This document shows positions 1-7,552 of a stretch of 7,853 nt of DNA, piece by piece (positions within the stretch are counted from its first letter, which is position 1; each line of letters starts with the position of its first letter). Position numbers and translations under genes: made by a program. The stretch comes from Gammaproteobacteria bacterium (GTDB lineage Bacteria; Pseudomonadota; Gammaproteobacteria; Pseudomonadales; Azotimanducaceae_A), in assembly GCA_028819775.1 (NCBI GenBank), contig JAPPKV010000151.1, forward strand, positions 1-7,853, given 5' to 3'. A model generated the notes under the pieces. That model was not told the DNA's origin. It saw only the letters and a list, made by a program, of their open reading frames with translations, and did no database searches.

Positions 1-2006
1 TCGAAGTGGCGGCTGAGGACCACCGGCGTGACGCTGGCCCACGTTCGCGATGGTCGTGTCCAAGTCTCGTGCTGGAGATTCCACGGCGGACGTTCGCGCC
101 TGTCGAGCTCGATGCCCAAATCGAATGACCCGCCATCGAACAGCCGAAGGTCGTCTCGTGGCAGGCCGGTGTTCGAGTCGCGCAGGATGGGCTCAAGGCA
201 GCGCCCGACCTCTTGGTGTTGCGGCACCATCGGCACGATCAAGCCCAACCCCATGATCCGCCCGTCGGCGTGTGGGGAACCGACGAACGGCAGCGGCGCC
301 AACGCCAAGTGTGGATCAGCAGAGGGTCTGCCGTCGGCGCGATGTCCGCTGAACCACTCGGGTGGCGGTTGAATAGGGCATTGGTGCATCAGCAATCCCC
401 GTAGGGCTGCCGTCAGCTTGAGTGTTGCCGGCAGGGACGCGCGACGCCCGTTGATGGCCAGCACGATGATGTGCGGATCGAACACGGTATGCGGTGTCGG
501 GTCGGGGGCGGGCTTTAGCGGTCGGCTATACCCCTGCCAACGGGTAGGAACGGGCCTTCTCGGTGTTGGCGGTCTGTAGGACTTCAACTCCTTGGTGCGT
601 CGGTCCTGTTCTCGATGGCTTCCCGGACTACCTGCGCGATCTCCTTGGCGCTCTGCCGCAGCAAGTCGATCTCGTATTGTGTCAACATCCGGGGAGCGGG
701 CGAGGTACCGAGCCTCCGATTGAGTAAGGCAGTTGAAGGCGTGACCGAACTTGGCGCGCCACCACTTCTCGAATTCCCGTCCGTGCTTGTCTCTGAGTTC
801 ACGTAGCTGCTCCTTTGTAGGGTTCAACTTGGCCGAATAGGGCTTGCCCGTCAATGCCACCGTGCCGATCACCGTGCCACCCTGTTTTTGGACCCAGCCG
901 CGGAGGTTTGCCATGGTGCCGCCTTGTCCTATGAAGTCGTCGACCATCACATACTCGCGCCCTGAATCGACGTCGCCTACGAATCGAGCCTGACGGGCAA
1001 GCCGACCGTACCCGTCGGCTCCGGTATGGGAGACCACGTTCGACTGCACGACTTGGGCAATGAACGGAATACCCAGTCGGGCACTCAGCCACTCGGCCAA
1101 GGCTGCTGGAATCGCGTTTACGCCTTGGTGCTCGTATGAATGGGCGCAGACCAACGCGGGTGCGCCTCGGTCGCTTGTCTCGACGAAGCGGCGCACGTCG
1201 GCGACAGGCGACTCGTCTAGCAGCGAGTCGATCAAACGTCGCGCCGCTAGACCGTCGCCGGACTTGGCCAGCGCGTACTCCGGATGTCGCCTGGTTTGTG
1301 CTTCGTTGGCCAACAAGACGGCGTCGGGAAAGCGTCGCCACGGCACCCTCGGTGGAGGCACACCCGCCTTGCGATCTGCTTCGGCCTGCCACGCGGTTTG
1401 GTGCGGGTGCGCCAATTGATCGAGGCGGCCTGACGCAGGAATCCTAAGGCGATGCGTAGCCATGCCTTCGGCAGGCACCCAGGTGGGTTCGATGTCGCGA
1501 TCCTGCTCCACCCAGACCTGCACGAAGGAGGCGGAGTTTCCTATGTGGGTGACCTTCGCAGCTAGGCGTTCGAGTGCGAGGTTGCGGCCATCCAGATCCG
1601 CATCGGGCCAGATCAGGTGCACCGTTGGGTCTTGCGGGATCGCGACCGGGAAGCCTCGGGGTTGACGTGACCGGTGTTCTGGAAGAACTCCAAGTCCCGC
1701 ATTCTTGAGCTTGTCCATCGTAGCTCTGGCAGGCACGCGACCGACCTTGACATCGTTCACCGGCGCATAACTCGTCACTGGCGAACGCGCCGACGCGTCC
1801 GAGGCGGCGAGGCTTGGTGGCGGAAGCCCCTCAAGCCAACGCAGCGCAGCGCCTTCGTCCGCATCCTCGGTGGTTTCGAACCATGCTGCCGCCAAGGCCA
1901 TGAACACGCGATCCGGGTGGGGTGGCCACTCGGCGTGCGTTTTCCTGGCTCCGTCCGCTGCGGCCATGGCCCAGCCGTTCAGGTAGCAGATGCCAAGAGC
2001 GAACAT
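1..2006 (-). CDS. csb2: Csb2 (Cas5-Cas6 fusion of type I-G CRISPR) with an internal phosphoribosyltransferase domain; 3' end cut by the window edge
   Basis: In type I-G systems Csb2 combines Cas5 and Cas6: it processes pre-crRNA and binds the crRNA end in Cascade. The frame starts at ATG 2004-2006, overlapping the csb1 stop (TGATG), and stays open for 668 codons to base 1, so the C-terminus is missing. Residues 1-197 look like the Csb2 N-terminus (FALGICYLNGW at 2-12, AEWPPHPDRVFMALAAAWFE at 25-44, THIGNSASFVQVW at 153-165, LRIPASGRL at 187-195). Residues about 199-470 are foreign to the family and hold a PRTase. From about 489 the Csb2/Cas6-like part resumes: RWQGYSRP, DPHIIVLAI, SGHRADGR, ADPHLALAPLPFVGSPHADG, and WASVTPVVLSRH at 658-668. 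My recollection is that ordinary Csb2 proteins are about 450-550 residues, so this one is about 250 too long. Identification as Csb2 is strong from motifs and gene order. Whether one long polypeptide is made is uncertain. No good Shine-Dalgarno lies close to the start, so translation probably depends on coupling to csb1. Confidence 0.88.
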   Translation of the reverse strand, partial: MFALGICYLNGWAMAAADGARKTHAEWPPHPDRVFMALAAAWFETTEDADEGAALRWLEGLPPPSLAASDASARSPVTSYAPVNDVKVGRVPARATMDKLKNAGLGVLPEHRSRQPRGFPVAIPQDPTVHLIWPDADLDGRNLALERLAAKVTHIGNSASFVQVWVEQDRDIEPTWVPAEGMATHRLRIPASGRLDQLAHPHQTAWQAEADRKAGVPPPRVPWRRFPDAVLLANEAQTRRHPEYALAKSGDGLAARRLIDSLLDESPVADVRRFVETSDRGAPALVCAHSYEHQGVNAIPAALAEWLSARLGIPFIAQVVQSNVVSHTGADGYGRLARQARFVGDVDSGREYVMVDDFIGQGGTMANLRGWVQKQGGTVIGTVALTGKPYSAKLNPTKEQLRELRDKHGREFEKWWRAKFGHAFNCLTQSEARYLARSPDVDTIRDRLAAAERQGDRAGSPGSHREQDRRTKELKSYRPPTPRRPVPTRWQGYSRPLKPAPDPTPHTVFDPHIIVLAINGRRASLPATLKLTAALRGLLMHQCPIQPPPEWFSGHRADGRPSADPHLALAPLPFVGSPHADGRIMGLGLIVPMVPQHQEVGRCLEPILRDSNTGLPRDDLRLFDGGSFDLGIELDRRERPPWNLQHETWTRPSRTWASVTPVVLSRHF
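584..688 (-). other. Out-of-phase 34-codon ORF at the right edge of the PRTase insert, possibly the start of a gene carried in with it
   Basis: A different minus-strand frame reads MLTQYEIDLLRQSAKEIAQ and on through VVREAIENR to a TGA at 584-586. About 25 of 32 third positions are G or C, against roughly half in the overlapping csb2 frame, and the amphipathic helical composition looks like real protein. ATG 686-688 overlaps the PRTase C-terminus, as a translationally coupled downstream gene would, but there is no clear Shine-Dalgarno. I read it as a fragment of a neighbour gene imported with the PRTase. It could equally be a chance ORF; I do not recognise it. Confidence 0.35.
592..599. repeat. 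8-bp direct repeat TTGGTGCG, right copy
   Basis: This 8-mer also occurs in the same orientation at 1398-1405. The pair brackets the PRTase segment, 806 bases apart. It could be a target-site duplication or a microhomology junction from the insertion. With only 8 bases and a freely chosen search area, coincidence is quite possible. Confidence 0.35.
639..1343 (-). other. Phosphoribosyltransferase-like domain embedded in Csb2
   Basis: Csb2 residues about 222-456 form what looks like a whole type I PRTase. It opens with PWRRFPDAVLLANEAQ (222-237), continues with EHQGVNAIPAALAEWL (292-307) and a TGADGYGRLARQARF stretch (328-342), and then has the PRPP-binding signature VMVDDFIGQGGT at 353-364: hydrophobic strand, two acidic residues, and a GQGGT phosphate loop. 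LTGKP (385-389), KWWRAKFGHAFNCLTQSEARYL (414-435) and SPDVDTIRDRLAAA (438-451) follow. These match, from memory, a free-standing accessory PRTase family of about 220-260 residues often found on mobile DNA. The acidic pair D356/D357 and the glycine loop are intact, so catalysis is possible; the substrate base is unknown. The frame is the same as csb2 on both sides. The domain itself is well supported; its exact limits and any function in CRISPR are inference. Confidence 0.85.
1398..1405. repeat. 8-bp direct repeat TTGGTGCG, left copy
   Basis: Partner of the copy at 592-599. It lies at Csb2 residues 202-203, just after the last recognisable Csb2 motif (GRLDQ) and before the PRTase begins. Removing the 806 bases between equivalent points would join GRLDQLAHPHQ to GVEVLQTANTEKARSYP. 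That run has good third-position bias but needs a further one-base correction to enter the RWQGY frame. Confidence 0.35.
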
Positions 2007-3217
2007 CAGTCTTGTTCCGCTCCTGACTCCCTCGCTAGTTCTTGGCTCTTGCGGACCAGCTCGACCAAGTCGTGCGACGGTGTGAGTTCGACTGGTTCTT
2101 CCGCCCACGGGAGACCTGACTGCTTGGCCTCATCGATTGCCTCACGAAGCAATTCGATGCCCGCACCGGCGTCGAGTTCGAACTCTTCCGGCGTTTGTCC
2201 GGGACGGTCTAGGAGCTGCCAGACAGGCTCGCTTTCGGGGAAGAGCTGGCACCGGGAACGAAGGTCGCCATCGCTGCGCGCAAGAGTTCCCGCAGCCAAT
2301 CCCAAGGCAGCCAGCGTCGTACGTGCAGCCGAATCGACATCTTGATCGGAAACAACGCCACCGTTAAGTGGAAACCTCAGCCGCCGAAGAACAGCCATTG
2401 ACAGGGTTGTTGTCTGCTGCCCGCTTGAGATTGTGAACCCGCCATCGACGATTCCGGGCGTCACGTTTCCATGGTTCGCTTCAGACGGCCTGCCGGTTTT
2501 CTTGAGTTTTCCTTTCCCGTCTCCCGCGTCGAGCGTCCAAGTCGGTGCTCCGTCGCTTGCCGACTTCCTTTCGTAGAGCGGGCCAGCACCGAGCATGATT
2601 TGCGCGGGATCAATGCGGCTTGAGGTCCGGACGCCGGCGACTGCATCGAACCCAACGATCTCAGACACCAACGCACGTTGGAATTTGGCCCCAAGCCCCC
2701 CGCGCGGTCCCGTCGAGTCCCACAAGCCGAACACCAAGGCCGTCGGACACAGGCCAAACAGCCCCGTTGCGTTGCGAATGTCAGCCGTATCGAGAACTCG
2801 TCCCGTTTCCGACTCGCGGAAAATCACTCCATCGAGCAGGCTGTCTCGGAACAGCGCATCTGCAATGCGGTGCGGTGCCTCTAGGCTGCTCACCGTGAAC
2901 CTCTTGAGCAGCGTGTCCTGATCGAAACGAGTAACGACTTGCGGTAACGCGAGATCACCCGCGCGATGCGCCTCCAGAAGCGCCCACTCCATACGATTGG
3001 CTTGCGACTGCACTGAGTCGAGAAGGACGCACTTTCTGATTTCGCCCGTTTTCGGATCGATGCGTTCCTCGGTGGCGTACTTTCGGCCTTCGTATGTTGG
3101 CGGAAACACTTTGTCCCCTGGACCGCCTGCGGGCTGATAGACGGTGACGCAACGAAACGCGGCTGCTTTACCGCACACTGCTTGTCGCAACGTCGTCAGA
3201 TCAAGTTGCTTGGACAC
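2006..3217 (-). CDS. csb1: Csb1, the Cas7 backbone subunit of type I-G Cascade
   Basis: Csb1 is the Cas7-family RNA-binding protein that polymerises along the crRNA to form the Cascade backbone. I place the start at GTG 3215-3217, giving 403 residues. AGGAGAG (3222-3228) sits 4 bases upstream and the gap to the preceding stop is only 13 bases. A TTG at 3271 in the same frame would add 18 residues, but these overlap the upstream gene and look unstructured. Family motifs, numbered from the GTG, are PPTYEGRKYATEER (39-52), LLDSVQSQANRMEWALL (65-81), CPTALVFGLWDSTGPRGG (157-174) running into LGAKFQRALVSEIVG (175-189), and RTSSRIDP (197-204). The C-terminal half has LSMAVLRRLRFP and a weakly conserved acidic tail. 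Length and motifs are normal for the family and nothing appears broken. The stop TGA (2006-2008) shares a base with the csb2 ATG, so the two are probably translationally coupled. Confidence 0.95.
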   Translation of the reverse strand: MSKQLDLTTLRQAVCGKAAAFRCVTVYQPAGGPGDKVFPPTYEGRKYATEERIDPKTGEIRKCVLLDSVQSQANRMEWALLEAHRAGDLALPQVVTRFDQDTLLKRFTVSSLEAPHRIADALFRDSLLDGVIFRESETGRVLDTADIRNATGLFGLCPTALVFGLWDSTGPRGGLGAKFQRALVSEIVGFDAVAGVRTSSRIDPAQIMLGAGPLYERKSASDGAPTWTLDAGDGKGKLKKTGRPSEANHGNVTPGIVDGGFTISSGQQTTTLSMAVLRRLRFPLNGGVVSDQDVDSAARTTLAALGLAAGTLARSDGDLRSRCQLFPESEPVWQLLDRPGQTPEEFELDAGAGIELLREAIDEAKQSGLPWAEEPVELTPSHDLVELVRKSQELARESGAEQD

Positions 3218-3221
3218 TGCT

Positions 3222-3228
3222 CTCTCCT
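3222..3228 (-). promoter_or_regulatory. Shine-Dalgarno for csb1 (decides a GTG start)
   Basis: AGGAGAG on the minus strand, 4 bases before GTG 3215-3217 and just after the upstream stop at 3231-3233. It selects the internal GTG over the upstream in-frame TTG at 3271. Confidence 0.75.
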
Positions 3229-3230
3229 GT

Positions 3231-4145
3231 TCATGCTGGTCGTGAGTGTGTGAAGTTCCGGTACTTCCCAACAGTAAAGCGTTGGCTTCGATATACCTCC
3301 GAGATTCCCATGTCTCCCAGCAATGCTCGGTCAGGTATCGGCTTTTGAATCTCAGGCACCGCTAGCAGAGATCGCATAACGTCTACGCTGAGCTGACACA
3401 CCCAGATTGGCCATGTAAACAGCGTCGTCCATTCCCGGCTCGAAAATCCTGTTGTTGCAAGCCGTCGATTGAAGGGAGCTGTTGGCAGAAGTGGGAGTGC
3501 TTCCATCGCAAGTCGGTTGGCACCGTACATAGTTCTAGGGGCGGTTCCAGACGGATTGTCCCACCGCAGGGCATGCCGTCGATCCTCCACAGGATCCCAA
3601 CGAAGCCCGAGCCTCACATCCGAGTAATCCCATGACTCGAAGAGAGACTTGCGTAGATGGTCGGCGCCAGTCTGGTCTACAAGGTCCTTCATCGAGCCGA
3701 GGAAGTGTTGGTGTCCGGCCCCGCTCATGGTCCGTAGAGCGGTGTCTTGGATGGTCTTGTCGTTACTCCCGACGACGACTTCACACCCAAAAGCAGCAAT
3801 GAAGTCGGCGTACCGACGATCCTGTGCCGAAGCACACGATTGGGCACGTGAAGCCACCGCGCCAAACTCCTTGGGGACGACATTGAGGTCTGCCGCAAAG
3901 GTGAACTCTGGGCATGACTCTCGGCGAAGTTCCTCATGCAACATCTCCACGAGTTGTCCTTGCACAATTGGTTTCTTACCGAGAACGACCGGCCGCCAAC
4001 CGTTTCGCATTGTCCATTGCATTCGCCAATTGCCGTGTTCGTCGGCCAACGTGATCGTACGCAGTAAGCCAACAGCCGCGAGGAATCCCAGTGGATTGCT
4101 CCCGTCGAGGCCGACCAGCACGAGACCGCGTTCGTCACCCATCAT
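3231..4145 (-). CDS. Compact Cas8-like subunit of type I-G CRISPR (Cas8u2 / 'Cas3-extension' type protein)
   Basis: This gene occupies the slot between cas3 and csb1 that in Geobacter-type I-U/I-G loci holds the small Cas8 (GSU0052, Cas8u2; I also recall the label 'Cas3-extension family'). From the first ATG of an ATGATG pair it is 304 residues; the second ATG (4140-4142) is almost as good. GGGAGGAG (4150-4157) lies just upstream. The gene overlaps the cas3 stop by 11 bases, so coupling is likely. Visible motifs are LDGSNPLGFLAAVGLLR (13-29), which resembles the start of Csx17; SGAGHQHFLGSM (141-152); LRWDPVEDRRHALRWDNPS (181-199); MYGANRLAMEALPLLP (207-222); a Trp-rich WTTLFTWPIWVCQLS; and a basic end, VYRSQRFTVGKYRNFT. 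By analogy it would contact target DNA near the PAM; no catalytic motif is seen. The family placement rests on position plus remembered motifs. Its role as Cas8 is inferred. Confidence 0.78.
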   Translation of the reverse strand: MMGDERGLVLVGLDGSNPLGFLAAVGLLRTITLADEHGNWRMQWTMRNGWRPVVLGKKPIVQGQLVEMLHEELRRESCPEFTFAADLNVVPKEFGAVASRAQSCASAQDRRYADFIAAFGCEVVVGSNDKTIQDTALRTMSGAGHQHFLGSMKDLVDQTGADHLRKSLFESWDYSDVRLGLRWDPVEDRRHALRWDNPSGTAPRTMYGANRLAMEALPLLPTAPFNRRLATTGFSSREWTTLFTWPIWVCQLSVDVMRSLLAVPEIQKPIPDRALLGDMGISEVYRSQRFTVGKYRNFTHSRPA

Positions 4146-7100
4146 GAGTCTCCTCCCACTCGCTGCGGCGCCAGTCGGCCAGGCGTAGCAGCGTTTCGAG
4201 CCAAGCAAGACCCCACCACCCGTATCGACGAGTCAGCCGCCAGAAGCGATCCGCGCCGCCGGAGTCGAGGCGTTCGAGATAGGTAGGACCGCACCATCGC
4301 ATCCGATGGCCATTCAACTCGAATTGTGCCGTGACGGACTCATCGTCCGCGACCACCGGTGCAAACGGGCGGCAATACCCATGGTGGCTAGCGACGAGGT
4401 GGAGAACCAAGTCGTGTAGGTCCGTGTCTGTGGGGAGGAGGTCCGGTGCCGTCTCAGCCATACGTACCGACAGCAGTTCGTGCCGGCCTCCTTCCGGATA
4501 CCCCGATGCCTTCCGTGCGCGTTGCCGGGCAGAGCGACTATCCGGCATGTCGGCGGACTTGGCCCATAGTTCCCGGCCATCCCAGCGTGCTCCGCCTCTC
4601 AAGAGCGACTGGAATCGTGGGTCGGCTTTGCCGAGGTCATGCAGCAAACCGGCCCGTGCGACCGCGTGAACCAAGGGCTCTGGCAGGCCACATCCGACCG
4701 CGTGTCGTCGAGCATAGTCCTCGACGCCCGGCAGATGTGTTCGCAGGCGCACCGGATTGCCATTTCGGTGCGAAATCCCCGACGCGGAGGTGTCGTCCTC
4801 GTCGCTGAAAGCGTCGACTTCGTGCGTGGTCACCGGCACCCGCCGCCGACCGGCCACAACCAAACTCACCGCACCTGTCAGTCGGCACGCCCGACGGAGT
4901 TTTCGGACGTTCGAATACTCTGCCGCGAGTTCCTTTGCCGCTTGAGGTAACCACGTCCAGCCGTCCGGCGCCGTGCCGGCGGCCAGTTCCGCCAGCACTT
5001 CGCCGACGGCATCAACGACTTCATCGGGATCTTCTTCGTACTTCCGCTCGAGCTCACGGTCGAGGAGCGATTTCGCCGCCGACTTGGCCGAAAGCGAGTC
5101 TGGCCAGACATCAACCAAGTCCGGGTGCAACCGAAGTATCGGTTTGGCGCGGGCGAGCCGGTGCGCTTGGTCGCCGATATCAAGTGCGCCAGCCGGGTCA
5201 GTCGAATCTAGTTGGAGGTCTCCGAGCTGTTGCCACGGGCCAGGGTGGCCGGTCGGAATCACGATAACGTCGCCCGGTCGGATTTCGGATGGATCAGCCG
5301 TAATCGTGTCACGGCCCGTCTCTCGTCCTCGCCAACGGACCACGCGACGAACGGCGTTCTCTGAATCGTCGTCCAACTCGCGTGTGTGGGTTGCCTCCTG
5401 CGTATCTGCTCCCTCCACATCGGCACTATGGTCCTCGGTGTCTTCTGCCGACAGCCAGCGTTTGAACACTCCGATGGGTACCGGCAACGTCTCGACGCTG
5501 CTAGGCGGGCACAGCGACAGCGTGCTCAAGGCCTCGTCTTGGGCCTCGGTGCCCACTAGATCGAGGTCCGCACGCCAGCACACCTGCACATCAGGAGCGC
5601 CTTCTTGGGGGCCGTGCAGGAACAGGGACACATCTGGTGACGGCTGTGGTTCGGGCGCCGTTTGGCCCCAGCAGTCCACATGGGCGGGGAGCATGACCGG
5701 CGCGTCCAACGCCGGCGCATTTAGCATGTTCAAGACCTCCCCACACGGTAGGACACGCTTCAAGGCTGCGATGCCGAAGTCGACGATCCCGTTCTCGTCC
5801 TCGACACGCCGGAGCCATGCCCAAGTTTCGGTGAGCGCATTGCCGTAGACAGGATCGGGCTCCTTGAACTTGACCTGATCGCCGCGAATGAGAATCTCTG
5901 CACGGCTGTTTACGTTGCGGCCCATGCGATTTAGACGCCCGAATCGCTGGCGCAAGGCATCCAGACTTGCGCATTCTGTCACGAGCCCGTCGAAGTCCAA
6001 GTCGGCGCCCACCTCCAAGGTCTGCGTGGCGACGACGATGACCGGTTCGCGCAGATGGCGGTCCTCGGACTGATCGGAGTGGAGTCCCAGATGCCGAAGC
6101 CGCTCAACGACGGAGTCCTTGTCCACTGATCGCATCCGGCCGGTGAGCAAGACGATGTTGCTTTCCGATTGGCGCAGTAGCCTGTAGGTCTCCCGCGCCG
6201 TAGCAACCCGGTTGGCGAAGACGACAACAGCCCGGCGTCCATCGGCGATCAACTCTCGGGCAGCCAACGCTAGTTCCTTCGATAGCTCGGTGCTCGCGTC
6301 CTTGCCCTTCGCCTTCGCGACCGTCTTCAATCTTGCGGGTTTCCTTGCCAGCTGGCGTCTGCCGAGCGGATGGCTGGGGTCGGTGCCCTCCTCGGATGCG
6401 TCGTCGAACACTTCCTGCAATCCGGGCGGGGGTGTCGCTGACATCACGACTGGATGAAAACAACGCTCCAGCGGGGAGTCCGCCCAAGTCCGGTATTTGC
6501 GGACGGCGTCGAGAGTCTGCTGGAACGGCTGCGAGCAGTGCGCTTCGTCGAGAAGGATTAGGCTGTCGTTAGCGATCAGTCCCGCGTAGATCGGCCATGT
6601 TCCGAAACCGCGTCCGTATGCTCGAAAAAGGATGCGGGAGCCGACTTGGTCCACGGTTGAGGCGACTATCGTAGGCTGTAACGGGTTCCGCGCCCACGCT
6701 TCCGAGCGATACATGCCACCGCGGAGCGCGTGAACGGCCAACGGTGGCTCATCCTCAGGCCAATCGCACCCTCCACTTCCGATGTGGCAGAGGCTGTCCT
6801 TGACGGTCTTCAGGATCCCGTATTTGGCCTCGGCTAGCTTTCGGGCAAGGCGTCGAGCTCGCTCGTGAGCCTCGTCGACGATGATTCGGCGGTCCACGAC
6901 AAAGAAGATGCGGCGTGGTGCTGTAATCGGCTGGCCTACGTCCAGCCGTCTTGCTTGGGCAGCCAGGGCGAAAACGGCAATGTCCATGCAAGCCGTCTTG
7001 CCGGAGGCGGTCGGAAGAGCGATGGCCTCGGGCCAAGCCGATCTGCCTAGTTGACGGTTATTCGCAGAACCAGCCGAATCCGAAGACGGCGGCGGCGAAT

Positions 7101-7233
7101 ATTCGCCATGGGCCATGACGCGAGCTGCGAGAGATCTCTGCCAGGAGAACGGAGTTTTGCACCACAGCGCTTGGAAGAACTCATCGAAGTCCGATGCGTG
7201 CAGCGTCCTCCGACTCGTAGCTGTATCAACCAA
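4135..7233 (-). CDS. cas3: Cas3 helicase-nuclease of type I-G, HD domain at the C-terminus
   Basis: Cas3 is recruited by Cascade to the target R-loop, unwinds it with ATP and degrades the displaced strand. The protein is 1032 residues. The superfamily 2 helicase comes first: PTASGKT Walker A at 74-80, DEAH at 229-232, SAT at 265-267, TQTLEVGADLDF at 403-414, and the arginine-finger motif QRFGRLNRMGR at 429-439. A middle region (about 450-830) has an acidic, poorly conserved stretch near 606-628. The HD nuclease is at the C-terminus: GLLHDLGKAD with H865/D866, H918 in GRHELLS, the H950/H951 pair in ASHHGY, and D1020 in LRLADW. HD-last order is typical of I-G/I-U Cas3 and unlike most other type I subtypes. 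All key residues are present. The start is TTG 7231-7233: GAGGTGA lies 6 bases upstream and an in-frame stop lies immediately before. The start overlaps the upstream ORF's stop. Confidence 0.96.
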   Translation of the reverse strand: MVDTATSRRTLHASDFDEFFQALWCKTPFSWQRSLAARVMAHGEYSPPPSSDSAGSANNRQLGRSAWPEAIALPTASGKTACMDIAVFALAAQARRLDVGQPITAPRRIFFVVDRRIIVDEAHERARRLARKLAEAKYGILKTVKDSLCHIGSGGCDWPEDEPPLAVHALRGGMYRSEAWARNPLQPTIVASTVDQVGSRILFRAYGRGFGTWPIYAGLIANDSLILLDEAHCSQPFQQTLDAVRKYRTWADSPLERCFHPVVMSATPPPGLQEVFDDASEEGTDPSHPLGRRQLARKPARLKTVAKAKGKDASTELSKELALAARELIADGRRAVVVFANRVATARETYRLLRQSESNIVLLTGRMRSVDKDSVVERLRHLGLHSDQSEDRHLREPVIVVATQTLEVGADLDFDGLVTECASLDALRQRFGRLNRMGRNVNSRAEILIRGDQVKFKEPDPVYGNALTETWAWLRRVEDENGIVDFGIAALKRVLPCGEVLNMLNAPALDAPVMLPAHVDCWGQTAPEPQPSPDVSLFLHGPQEGAPDVQVCWRADLDLVGTEAQDEALSTLSLCPPSSVETLPVPIGVFKRWLSAEDTEDHSADVEGADTQEATHTRELDDDSENAVRRVVRWRGRETGRDTITADPSEIRPGDVIVIPTGHPGPWQQLGDLQLDSTDPAGALDIGDQAHRLARAKPILRLHPDLVDVWPDSLSAKSAAKSLLDRELERKYEEDPDEVVDAVGEVLAELAAGTAPDGWTWLPQAAKELAAEYSNVRKLRRACRLTGAVSLVVAGRRRVPVTTHEVDAFSDEDDTSASGISHRNGNPVRLRTHLPGVEDYARRHAVGCGLPEPLVHAVARAGLLHDLGKADPRFQSLLRGGARWDGRELWAKSADMPDSRSARQRARKASGYPEGGRHELLSVRMAETAPDLLPTDTDLHDLVLHLVASHHGYCRPFAPVVADDESVTAQFELNGHRMRWCGPTYLERLDSGGADRFWRLTRRYGWWGLAWLETLLRLADWRRSEWEETHDG
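4150..4157 (-). promoter_or_regulatory. Shine-Dalgarno for the Cas8-like gene
   Basis: GGGAGGAG on the minus strand, inside the cas3 coding end, 4 bases before ATG 4143-4145 and 7 before ATG 4140-4142. It excludes the far-upstream start at 4208, which would only translate cas3 sequence in a second frame. Confidence 0.75.
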
Positions 7234-7552
7234 GTCCGGTCACCTCGTTCCGTGCACGCGGACGCCACTTCGGGTCGGGATCGCATGGCGCGGATTCCGG
7301 AGTCGGTTTCAATAAACCTAGTTCCCGAATGCGCCGCTCGAGATGCTCCCGAATCCTCGCCTCGTCCACCGGCTCGCCCGCCATGGTCATGGAGTTGGCC
7401 ACTCGACGCGGAATCGCCTCCAGGTTCCGCCGCAGACGTTCGTTGGGCGGCAGTGCGCGCCAACTTCGGATGGCTTCCTGTAAGCGGTAGCTTGACATCG
7501 GCTTCTCGTGTTCGCCCAATGGCGCAACGGGACTGGTAGTGCCCTCGTTCAT
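7226..7552 (-). CDS. Small unknown protein translationally coupled to cas3
   Basis: From ATG 7550-7552 this is 108 residues; a second ATG at 7496-7498 would give 90. Neither has a convincing Shine-Dalgarno. The conserved-looking core is SYRLQEAIRSWRALPPNERL, followed by a helical segment with PRRVANSM and ending in EHLERRIRELGLL. It is charged and helical, with no membrane segment, signal peptide or known motif that I recognise. Codon bias resembles its neighbours, so it is probably a real coding region. Its TGA (7226-7228) overlaps the cas3 TTG by 8 bases, which suggests coupling and a role linked to the CRISPR operon. The same frame is open upstream of the ATG for 21 more protein-like codons, back to a TAG at 7616-7618, so this may be the surviving C-terminal part of a longer broken gene. 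I assign no function. Confidence 0.55.
   Translation of the reverse strand: MNEGTTSPVAPLGEHEKPMSSYRLQEAIRSWRALPPNERLRRNLEAIPRRVANSMTMAGEPVDEARIREHLERRIRELGLLKPTPESAPCDPDPKWRPRARNEVTGLG
7240..7246 (-). promoter_or_regulatory. Shine-Dalgarno for cas3 (decides a TTG start)
   Basis: GAGGTGA on the minus strand, 6 bases before TTG 7231-7233 and lying within the last codons of the upstream small ORF. With the in-frame TGA just upstream, it leaves TTG as the natural cas3 start. Confidence 0.7.

Follow-up and report, generated by a model that had tools for sequence, protein, structure and literature searches.

A phosphoribosyltransferase in the Cas5-Cas6 linker of type I-G Csb2, with a probable second protein encoded in an overlapping frame

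Closest described systems

Type I-G CRISPR (clustered regularly interspaced short palindromic repeats) systems comprise the subunit Csb2, described in Thioalkalivibrio sulfidiphilus as a Cas5-like part plus Cas6 that remains bound at the 3' hairpin of the CRISPR RNA (crRNA) (PMC9638904). The gene addressed here, csb2-PRTase, lies in a 7,853-nucleotide stretch of DNA from a Gammaproteobacteria bacterium (contig JAPPKV010000151.1; hereafter the window, at its full length) and almost certainly encodes a type I-G Csb2 with a phosphoribosyltransferase (PRTase) in the linker between its Cas5-like and Cas6-like parts. The two proteins share the family match, the operon context, a Cas6b-like C-domain and the two-domain linker, whereas the linker of the window protein holds the PRTase and a second reading frame. 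The inserted DNA appears to be double-coding, its 3' part also specifying, in the +1 frame and behind a ribosome-binding site of its own, a putative protein of about 70 amino acids (aa); this overlap of a second frame with the 3' part of the PRTase is new here. The combination of embedded PRTase and second frame is real and probably used, since related bacteria keep both; the explanation favoured for the whole, with a probability of roughly 0.75, is a fused two-frame module, PRTase plus small partner, that conditions or assists interference.

The closest solved fold to the window PRTase is that of ComFC (ComF), with which it has the phosphoribosyl pyrophosphate (PRPP) loop in common. ComFC is described as binding single-stranded DNA (ssDNA) independently of its PRPP site, that site being needed for DNA transport, and as carrying four zinc-binding cysteines (PMC9005727). 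In contrast, the window PRTase displays no zinc finger, low identity to ComFC (14-16 percent) and a place in Cascade instead of in competence. Clear homology is seen with the PRTases of phages and conjugative elements described by Iyer et al. 2017, whose section on PRTases names neither a CRISPR link nor an overlapping gene (PMC5512222). Unlike these enzymes, the window PRTase forms part of a Cas subunit by fusion.

The PRTase fold also occurs in anti-phage systems, namely ShosT (ShosTA) and type III retrons, to which the window PRTase gives weak or fold-level matches only. An earlier interpretation of this DNA from its letters (the sequence-only reading) had pointed to the retron precedent; the link is weak, the PADLOC model PRTase_III-A giving a match of 30 residues with E values of 0.05 and 0.012, and neither a reverse transcriptase nor an antitoxin was noticed among the neighbours viewed, no systematic search having been made. 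A cas gene giving a second small protein is known from Cas11, internally translated in types I-B, I-C and I-D; Cas11 is read in the same frame as its host gene, whereas the nested protein of the window is in another frame and arrived with the insert.

Architecture of the fusion

The minus-strand frame of csb2-PRTase is stop-free across 2108-3, and Csb2 profiles match both of its ends, the PRTase lying inside the intervening residues 218-480; the TIGR02165 Csb2 profile scores 217.8 bits against a cut-off of 45. The C-domain displays a Cas6-like fold. Homologues have conserved histidines past residue 668, where the window ends, and the catalytic histidine of T. sulfidiphilus Csb2 is H503. Profiles and homologues together confirm what the sequence-only reading had described, an open frame with a Csb2 N-part, a PRTase with an intact PRPP loop and a Csb2 C-part.

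A protein search with residues 222-480 as query, candidate lengths being set by the full frame, returned, out of a set of 7993 candidates, at least 403 proteins with E values no higher than 0.001. PF09609, the Pfam family of Csb2, is present in each of the 120 matches listed; 117 have the loop motif DDF[IV]GQGG, 117 the N-terminal WPPHP and 116 W.GY, and 111 combine the PRPP loop with both the N- and the C-motif of Csb2; the remaining three homologues without DDF[IV]GQGG still keep DD and GGT. Eighty PRTase loci were then fetched (the best 80 of 138 relatives from one scan of named genome contigs, sorted by local BLAST), and 24 of them contain the fusion, namely (i) 22 frames with N-part, PRTase and C-part, among which L029 is cut by its contig and L013 and L014 are near-identical and from one genome, and (ii) two frames lacking the N-part (L026 and L045).

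The same insert is thus present in other Csb2 homologues, as the sequence-only reading had proposed to look for. Of the two defects which that reading had foreseen, broken junctions are not borne out, the fused homologues being open through both; a separate PRTase gene does exist in some other relatives, and others lack the insert. That faulty assembly or sequencing brought a PRTase gene and csb2 together has next to no chance, the architecture recurring in many independent records, among them L006, L012, L017 and L019, which are titled as chromosomes, and is refuted by these homologues; a one-off insertion is ruled out by their shared architecture. A Csb2-PRTase protein was not found in the literature, searched mostly outside subscription journals, in agreement with the earlier impression that none had been described.

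The PRTase domain

The predicted model of residues 226-470 (predicted local distance difference test, pLDDT, 89.3) adopts the PRTase fold, and the acidic pair of the PRPP loop comprises D356 and D357. A generic purine salvage enzyme was considered and rejected, no PRTase family model having attained its cut-off. The relatives in mobile elements comprise 168 plasmid and 2 phage records, identity to the window PRTase being 36-38 percent for the 20 listed plasmid records and 40 percent for the two phages; PHROG 22413 matches it at 2.3e-60, and homology alone places it in the mobile-element PRTase group. By sequence, the inserted PRTase is a complete ComFC-like gene, related to phage, plasmid and many free-standing bacterial PRTases.

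The resemblance to ComFC suggests an alternative to the favoured partner module, in which the domain binds ssDNA or nucleotides at the R-loop and hands DNA to spacer acquisition or repair. This rather unlikely alternative draws on ComFC being the best solved fold and on its reported ssDNA binding and PRPP-site-dependent DNA transport (PMC9005727), and is countered by the identity of only 14-16 percent, by a cysteine content in residues 218-465 limited to Cys287 and Cys426, which leaves no four-cysteine zinc finger, and by the ssDNA binding of ComFC not having needed the PRPP site (PMC9005727).

The overlapping second frame

Across nearly all relatives examined, the +1 frame of the PRTase's 3' third is open, conserved and protein-like. 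At a fixed position in 21 fused loci, a start codon occurs in 21, a Shine-Dalgarno (SD) sequence in 20, at least 60 open codons in 20 and all three features in 20, compared with means of 10.2, 11.7, 4.3 and 1.1, respectively, and a maximum of 5 for the full combination, in 3000 re-draws of synonymous codons, each gene drawing from its own; the nested start position was picked after seeing the data, and L005, which the motif filter passed over, lies outside the count. The sole failure, L037, has a probable start six codons downstream, and frame +2 is open in none of the 21 loci. Pairwise comparison of the second-frame peptide, for the 20 of 24 fused loci that passed the filter, gives a similarity per site of 3.35 and 2.39 in two segments versus simulated values of 0.44 and 0.15; frame 0 scores 3.08 and 2.55 in the same segments, so both frames are conserved.

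Synonymous sites display the corresponding constraint. Among 30 genes of the I-G branch, synonymous identity is 0.53-0.65 near the nested start versus an expected 0.37-0.42, reaches 0.64-0.88 further into the nested frame versus 0.27-0.44, and drops back past its end. A like rise is seen in 43 lone PRTase genes until the PRTase stop (0.52-0.83 versus 0.29-0.46), beyond which the small frame usually runs in the lone loci. In this tail, the differences at nested positions 1, 2 and 3 number 19, 14 and 54, counted over 14 pairs from 18 lone loci that have at least 70 percent nucleotide identity and are not independent; the count replaced an earlier one that pooled unaligned sets (262, 277 and 351), and an intermediate pairing by nested-protein identity was biased towards the nested frame.

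In L025, whose record is titled as a chromosome, the nested frame is stopless and continues into a protein that matches CARF-HEPN-CARF over its residues 68-629 (3.8e-134), the gene lying between type I-G genes and type III-like genes. The order in L025:7770-16272 is a type I-G operon, the PRTase, CARF-HEPN-CARF, and then Cas10-like and type III RAMP genes, so that the locus mixes type I-G with type III.

Synonymous constraint by itself cannot separate protein from RNA, and the second-frame signal might be ascribed to an RNA or DNA element rather than to a protein. This is very improbable in view of the open frame with SD and start in all but one of the loci counted, the third-position bias in the nested frame past the PRTase stop, and the extension of the L025 frame into a CARF protein. 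The nested frame is instead very probably translated.

Regarding the start codon, 76 of 81 sequences passed the motif filter, the chosen starts comprising ATG in 71, TTG in 4 and GTG in 1, with an SD-like match of at least 4 bases in 61 of the 76, a descriptive figure given that the start was picked by the best SD. The inner ATG at 688, present in 23 of 23 fused loci, was set aside as first choice, and the nested start was moved to 802, because some lone relatives have no ATG there and the synonymous constraint begins farther upstream. The inner ATG is a possible start: the annotated protein of Moraxella phage Mcat5 begins at this place, and two Moraxella phage records annotate part of the nested frame as short hypothetical proteins, one of them beginning at the inner ATG. 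The nested frame was also found in Moraxella phage L144 and Acinetobacter plasmid L147, while the motif filter gave no match in the Vibrio plasmid L145. Scans of four nested proteins against NCBIfam and of two against PADLOC gave no family match, a tblastn search of the small peptide against plasmids gave one match at E 7, and the matches that portions of the nested protein gave in Pfam and PHROG (E 0.015-0.18) were taken as chance; the data point to an unnamed family of nested small proteins. Separate PRTases without type I-G neighbours, widespread among L027-L080, bear the same nested small frame.

Distribution, insertion site and history

The fused loci in the PRTase tree span Pseudomonadota, Acidobacteriota, Nitrospirota, Myxococcota, Binatota and Latescibacterota, and a crude repeat detector disclosed a CRISPR array in the flank of 7 of the 21 fused loci scanned, out of 24. 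Six further loci (L004, L021, L022, L024, L025 and L063) link the two, with the PRTase as its own gene beside type I-G operons whose Csb2 is unfused. In L010 a weak Cas4g/Cas1g fragment match lies near the PRTase and Csb2 is found elsewhere in the genome; a search of the L018 genome for Csb2 found none. For the 47 lone loci whose genomes were examined, Csb2 occurs in 2 genomes; it occurs in 31 of the 297 genomes of a sample of Acidobacteriota, the phylum of L019 by its title. Clustering the genes around lone PRTases by family, up to six per side, gave no shared neighbour recurring beyond a few loci, and in viral contigs nothing matched the patterns derived from P0001. The separate PRTases P0139 and P0142 have, by eye, an N-terminus resembling the start of Csb1 (Cas7g), as if joined to a cas7 remnant. 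P0121 and P0295 lie on contigs of equal length (10612), a hint that a separate PRTase may stand next to an empty Csb2.

Most free-standing PRTases start with MxxPPRxxWxxFPDxV, a stretch that in the fusion directly follows the left junction, so a whole gene was inserted. Insert-free Csb2 relatives are mostly 528 aa long, those aligned being 60-66 percent identical to the window protein, and the linker at their empty site is short and helical-looking by sequence alone; in P0262 and P0271 the flanks of the insert are retained and its core is gone. In a tree of Csb2 minus the insert, 20 of 22 empty forms fall in one branch (support 87), which nests among the fused Csb2s (support 86-88, not starred). 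This topology fits one old gain and several losses, the outgroup branch being long (2.96) and the root unsure.

The PRTase trees, quick trees built without bootstrap, gather 61 of 82 rows, among them every fused or linked PRTase, in one branch (Shimodaira-Hasegawa-like approximate likelihood ratio test 99), and keeping the fused PRTases together is rejected (approximately unbiased (AU) test, p 4e-74). Several free copies adjoin fused ones, for example P0121 with P0022 and L004 with L023, the latter two from one genome, and we infer that the PRTase was repeatedly released from csb2. The search that placed L004 and L023 in one genome listed stop codons inside some of its matches. The insert was a compact two-frame module, likely of mobile-element origin, both frames having been taken up by csb2. 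The sequence-only reading had offered either a new subunit architecture or a foreign insertion, and each holds in part: most likely a foreign gene entered in frame and is now a conserved Csb2 architecture.

The same record bears on whether the insert is passive cargo, a selfish two-frame module sitting in frame in a tolerant linker and useless to Cascade. The PRTase relatives in mobile elements, the empty and scarred sites, which show that the PRTase can be lost, and the interchange of fused and free forms implied by the AU test all lend themselves to this explanation, which is nevertheless unlikely: the two frames are retained in loci of six phyla, the PRTase recurs as a gene of its own next to several flavours of type I-G, and its PRPP loop is near-invariant.

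Proposed function and its weighing

According to the favoured explanation of a two-frame module that conditions or assists interference, the operon would yield two products from the PRTase DNA, and the fusion would assemble as an ordinary Csb2 on the crRNA 3' hairpin. Because Csb2 stays bound at that hairpin, the PRTase domain is expected near it, and each Cascade would bear a tethered PRPP- or nucleotide-binding PRTase near the Cas6 end. The small protein, which plausibly, and somewhat more probably than otherwise, is a partner of the PRTase, would bind it, and PRPP or nucleotide binding by the pair would condition or assist interference, rather than serve nucleotide salvage, possibly by ComFC-like nucleotide or ssDNA handling or as an effector released upon target recognition. 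Both frames are kept across many divergent copies, and therefore both products likely matter; the specific proposition that the PRTase acts in interference is tentative.

Several observations weigh against this explanation. The predicted model of the whole fusion has a predicted template modelling score (pTM) of 0.40, and Pfam PF00156 scores 14.3 bits, below its gathering score of 26.3. No type I-G match occurs in the fetched flank of 48 of the 80 PRTase loci, so the basic activity of the PRTase need not be CRISPR-specific. A search with the Csb2 N-part disclosed, among the 120 rows listed, 24 with the C-motif and no PRTase (22 empty, 2 scarred), so the PRTase is dispensable to Csb2 itself. 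Of the 30 Acidobacteriota Csb2 loci scanned, one from each genome and with flanks of 1.5 kb, none but that of the seed genome shows a PRTase at Csb2, which makes the fusion a minority form. In addition, the plasmid PRTases L142 and L143 have no nested frame.

Two further explanations assign the pair a more drastic part. In one, improbable on present data, PRTase and small protein would form a toxin-antitoxin-like effector and regulator, and Cascade would carry the effector; PRPP or nucleotide depletion would be unleashed once a target is recognised or the small protein is lost. In the other, which is doubtful and goes further, Cascade would carry a built-in second effector comprising a captured mobile-element PRTase and its nested partner, switched on at the target, one lineage's partner being wired directly to a CARF-HEPN-CARF RNase, of the class that cyclic oligoadenylate activates, and linking type I-G and type III immunity. 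Under the favoured module an enzyme fold that binds nucleotides sits within a subunit of the CRISPR effector, and one cas gene probably specifies two proteins, read in different frames, an arrangement retained in loci from six phyla. It also offers a defined complex in which the role of the puzzling mobile-element PRTases can be tested.

Genomic context and other loci

Profile searches identify the window genes as those of a type I-G operon, arranged cas3g, cas8g, cas7g and csb2 (Table 1). Upstream of cas3g lies a 108-aa open reading frame (ORF; 7226-7552, minus strand) without a family match, and ORFs 51-61 percent similar to it occur in the type I-G loci L011, L021, L022 and L037.

Table 1. 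Positions of the csb2-PRTase fusion, its parts, the nested frame and the neighbouring cas genes in the window
Feature	Position	Strand	Support or remark
csb2-PRTase fusion gene	3..2006	-	668 codons in window; 3' end cut by window end
Csb2 N-terminal (Cas5-like) part, residues 1-217	1356..2006	-	TIGR02165 and PADLOC Cas56g matches
PRTase unit, residues 218-465, including PPRxxW...FPDAV segment	612..1355	-	alignments; predicted model
PRPP-binding loop VMVDDFIGQGGT, residues 353-364	915..950	-	DDF[IV]GQGG in 117/120 listed homologues
Csb2 C-terminal (Cas6-like) part, residues 481-668, truncated by window end	3..566	-	
Putative nested frame, +1 relative to csb2-PRTase, 72 codons	584..802	-	GTG start at 802, stop 586-584
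SD sequence AAAGGAG, 7 nucleotides upstream of nested GTG	810..816	-	
Inner ATG of nested frame (MLTQYEIDLLRQ...), possible alternative start	686..688	-	matching place annotated in Moraxella phage record
cas7g (Csb1)	2006..3271	-	PF09617 1.8e-53
cas8g, 'Cas3-extension' flavour	3231..4208	-	NF049934 4.3e-76
cas3g	4135..7233	-	TIGR02621 9.9e-211

Other loci display variations of the operon and of Csb2 itself. After the fused operon, L012 and L026 carry genes that group with a type I-G operon of the Csx17 type, and in L021 (20364-20834) a HEPN match below the cut-off (17.5 versus 22 bits, E 0.0048) lies beside a Csx17-type operon. The Csb2 frames of G728 and G642 comprise 741 and 827 aa, respectively, with a second Cas6-like C-part detected, and the Csb2s of L025 (7770-9920) and L063 (15533-17698) are similarly long, at 716 and 721 aa.
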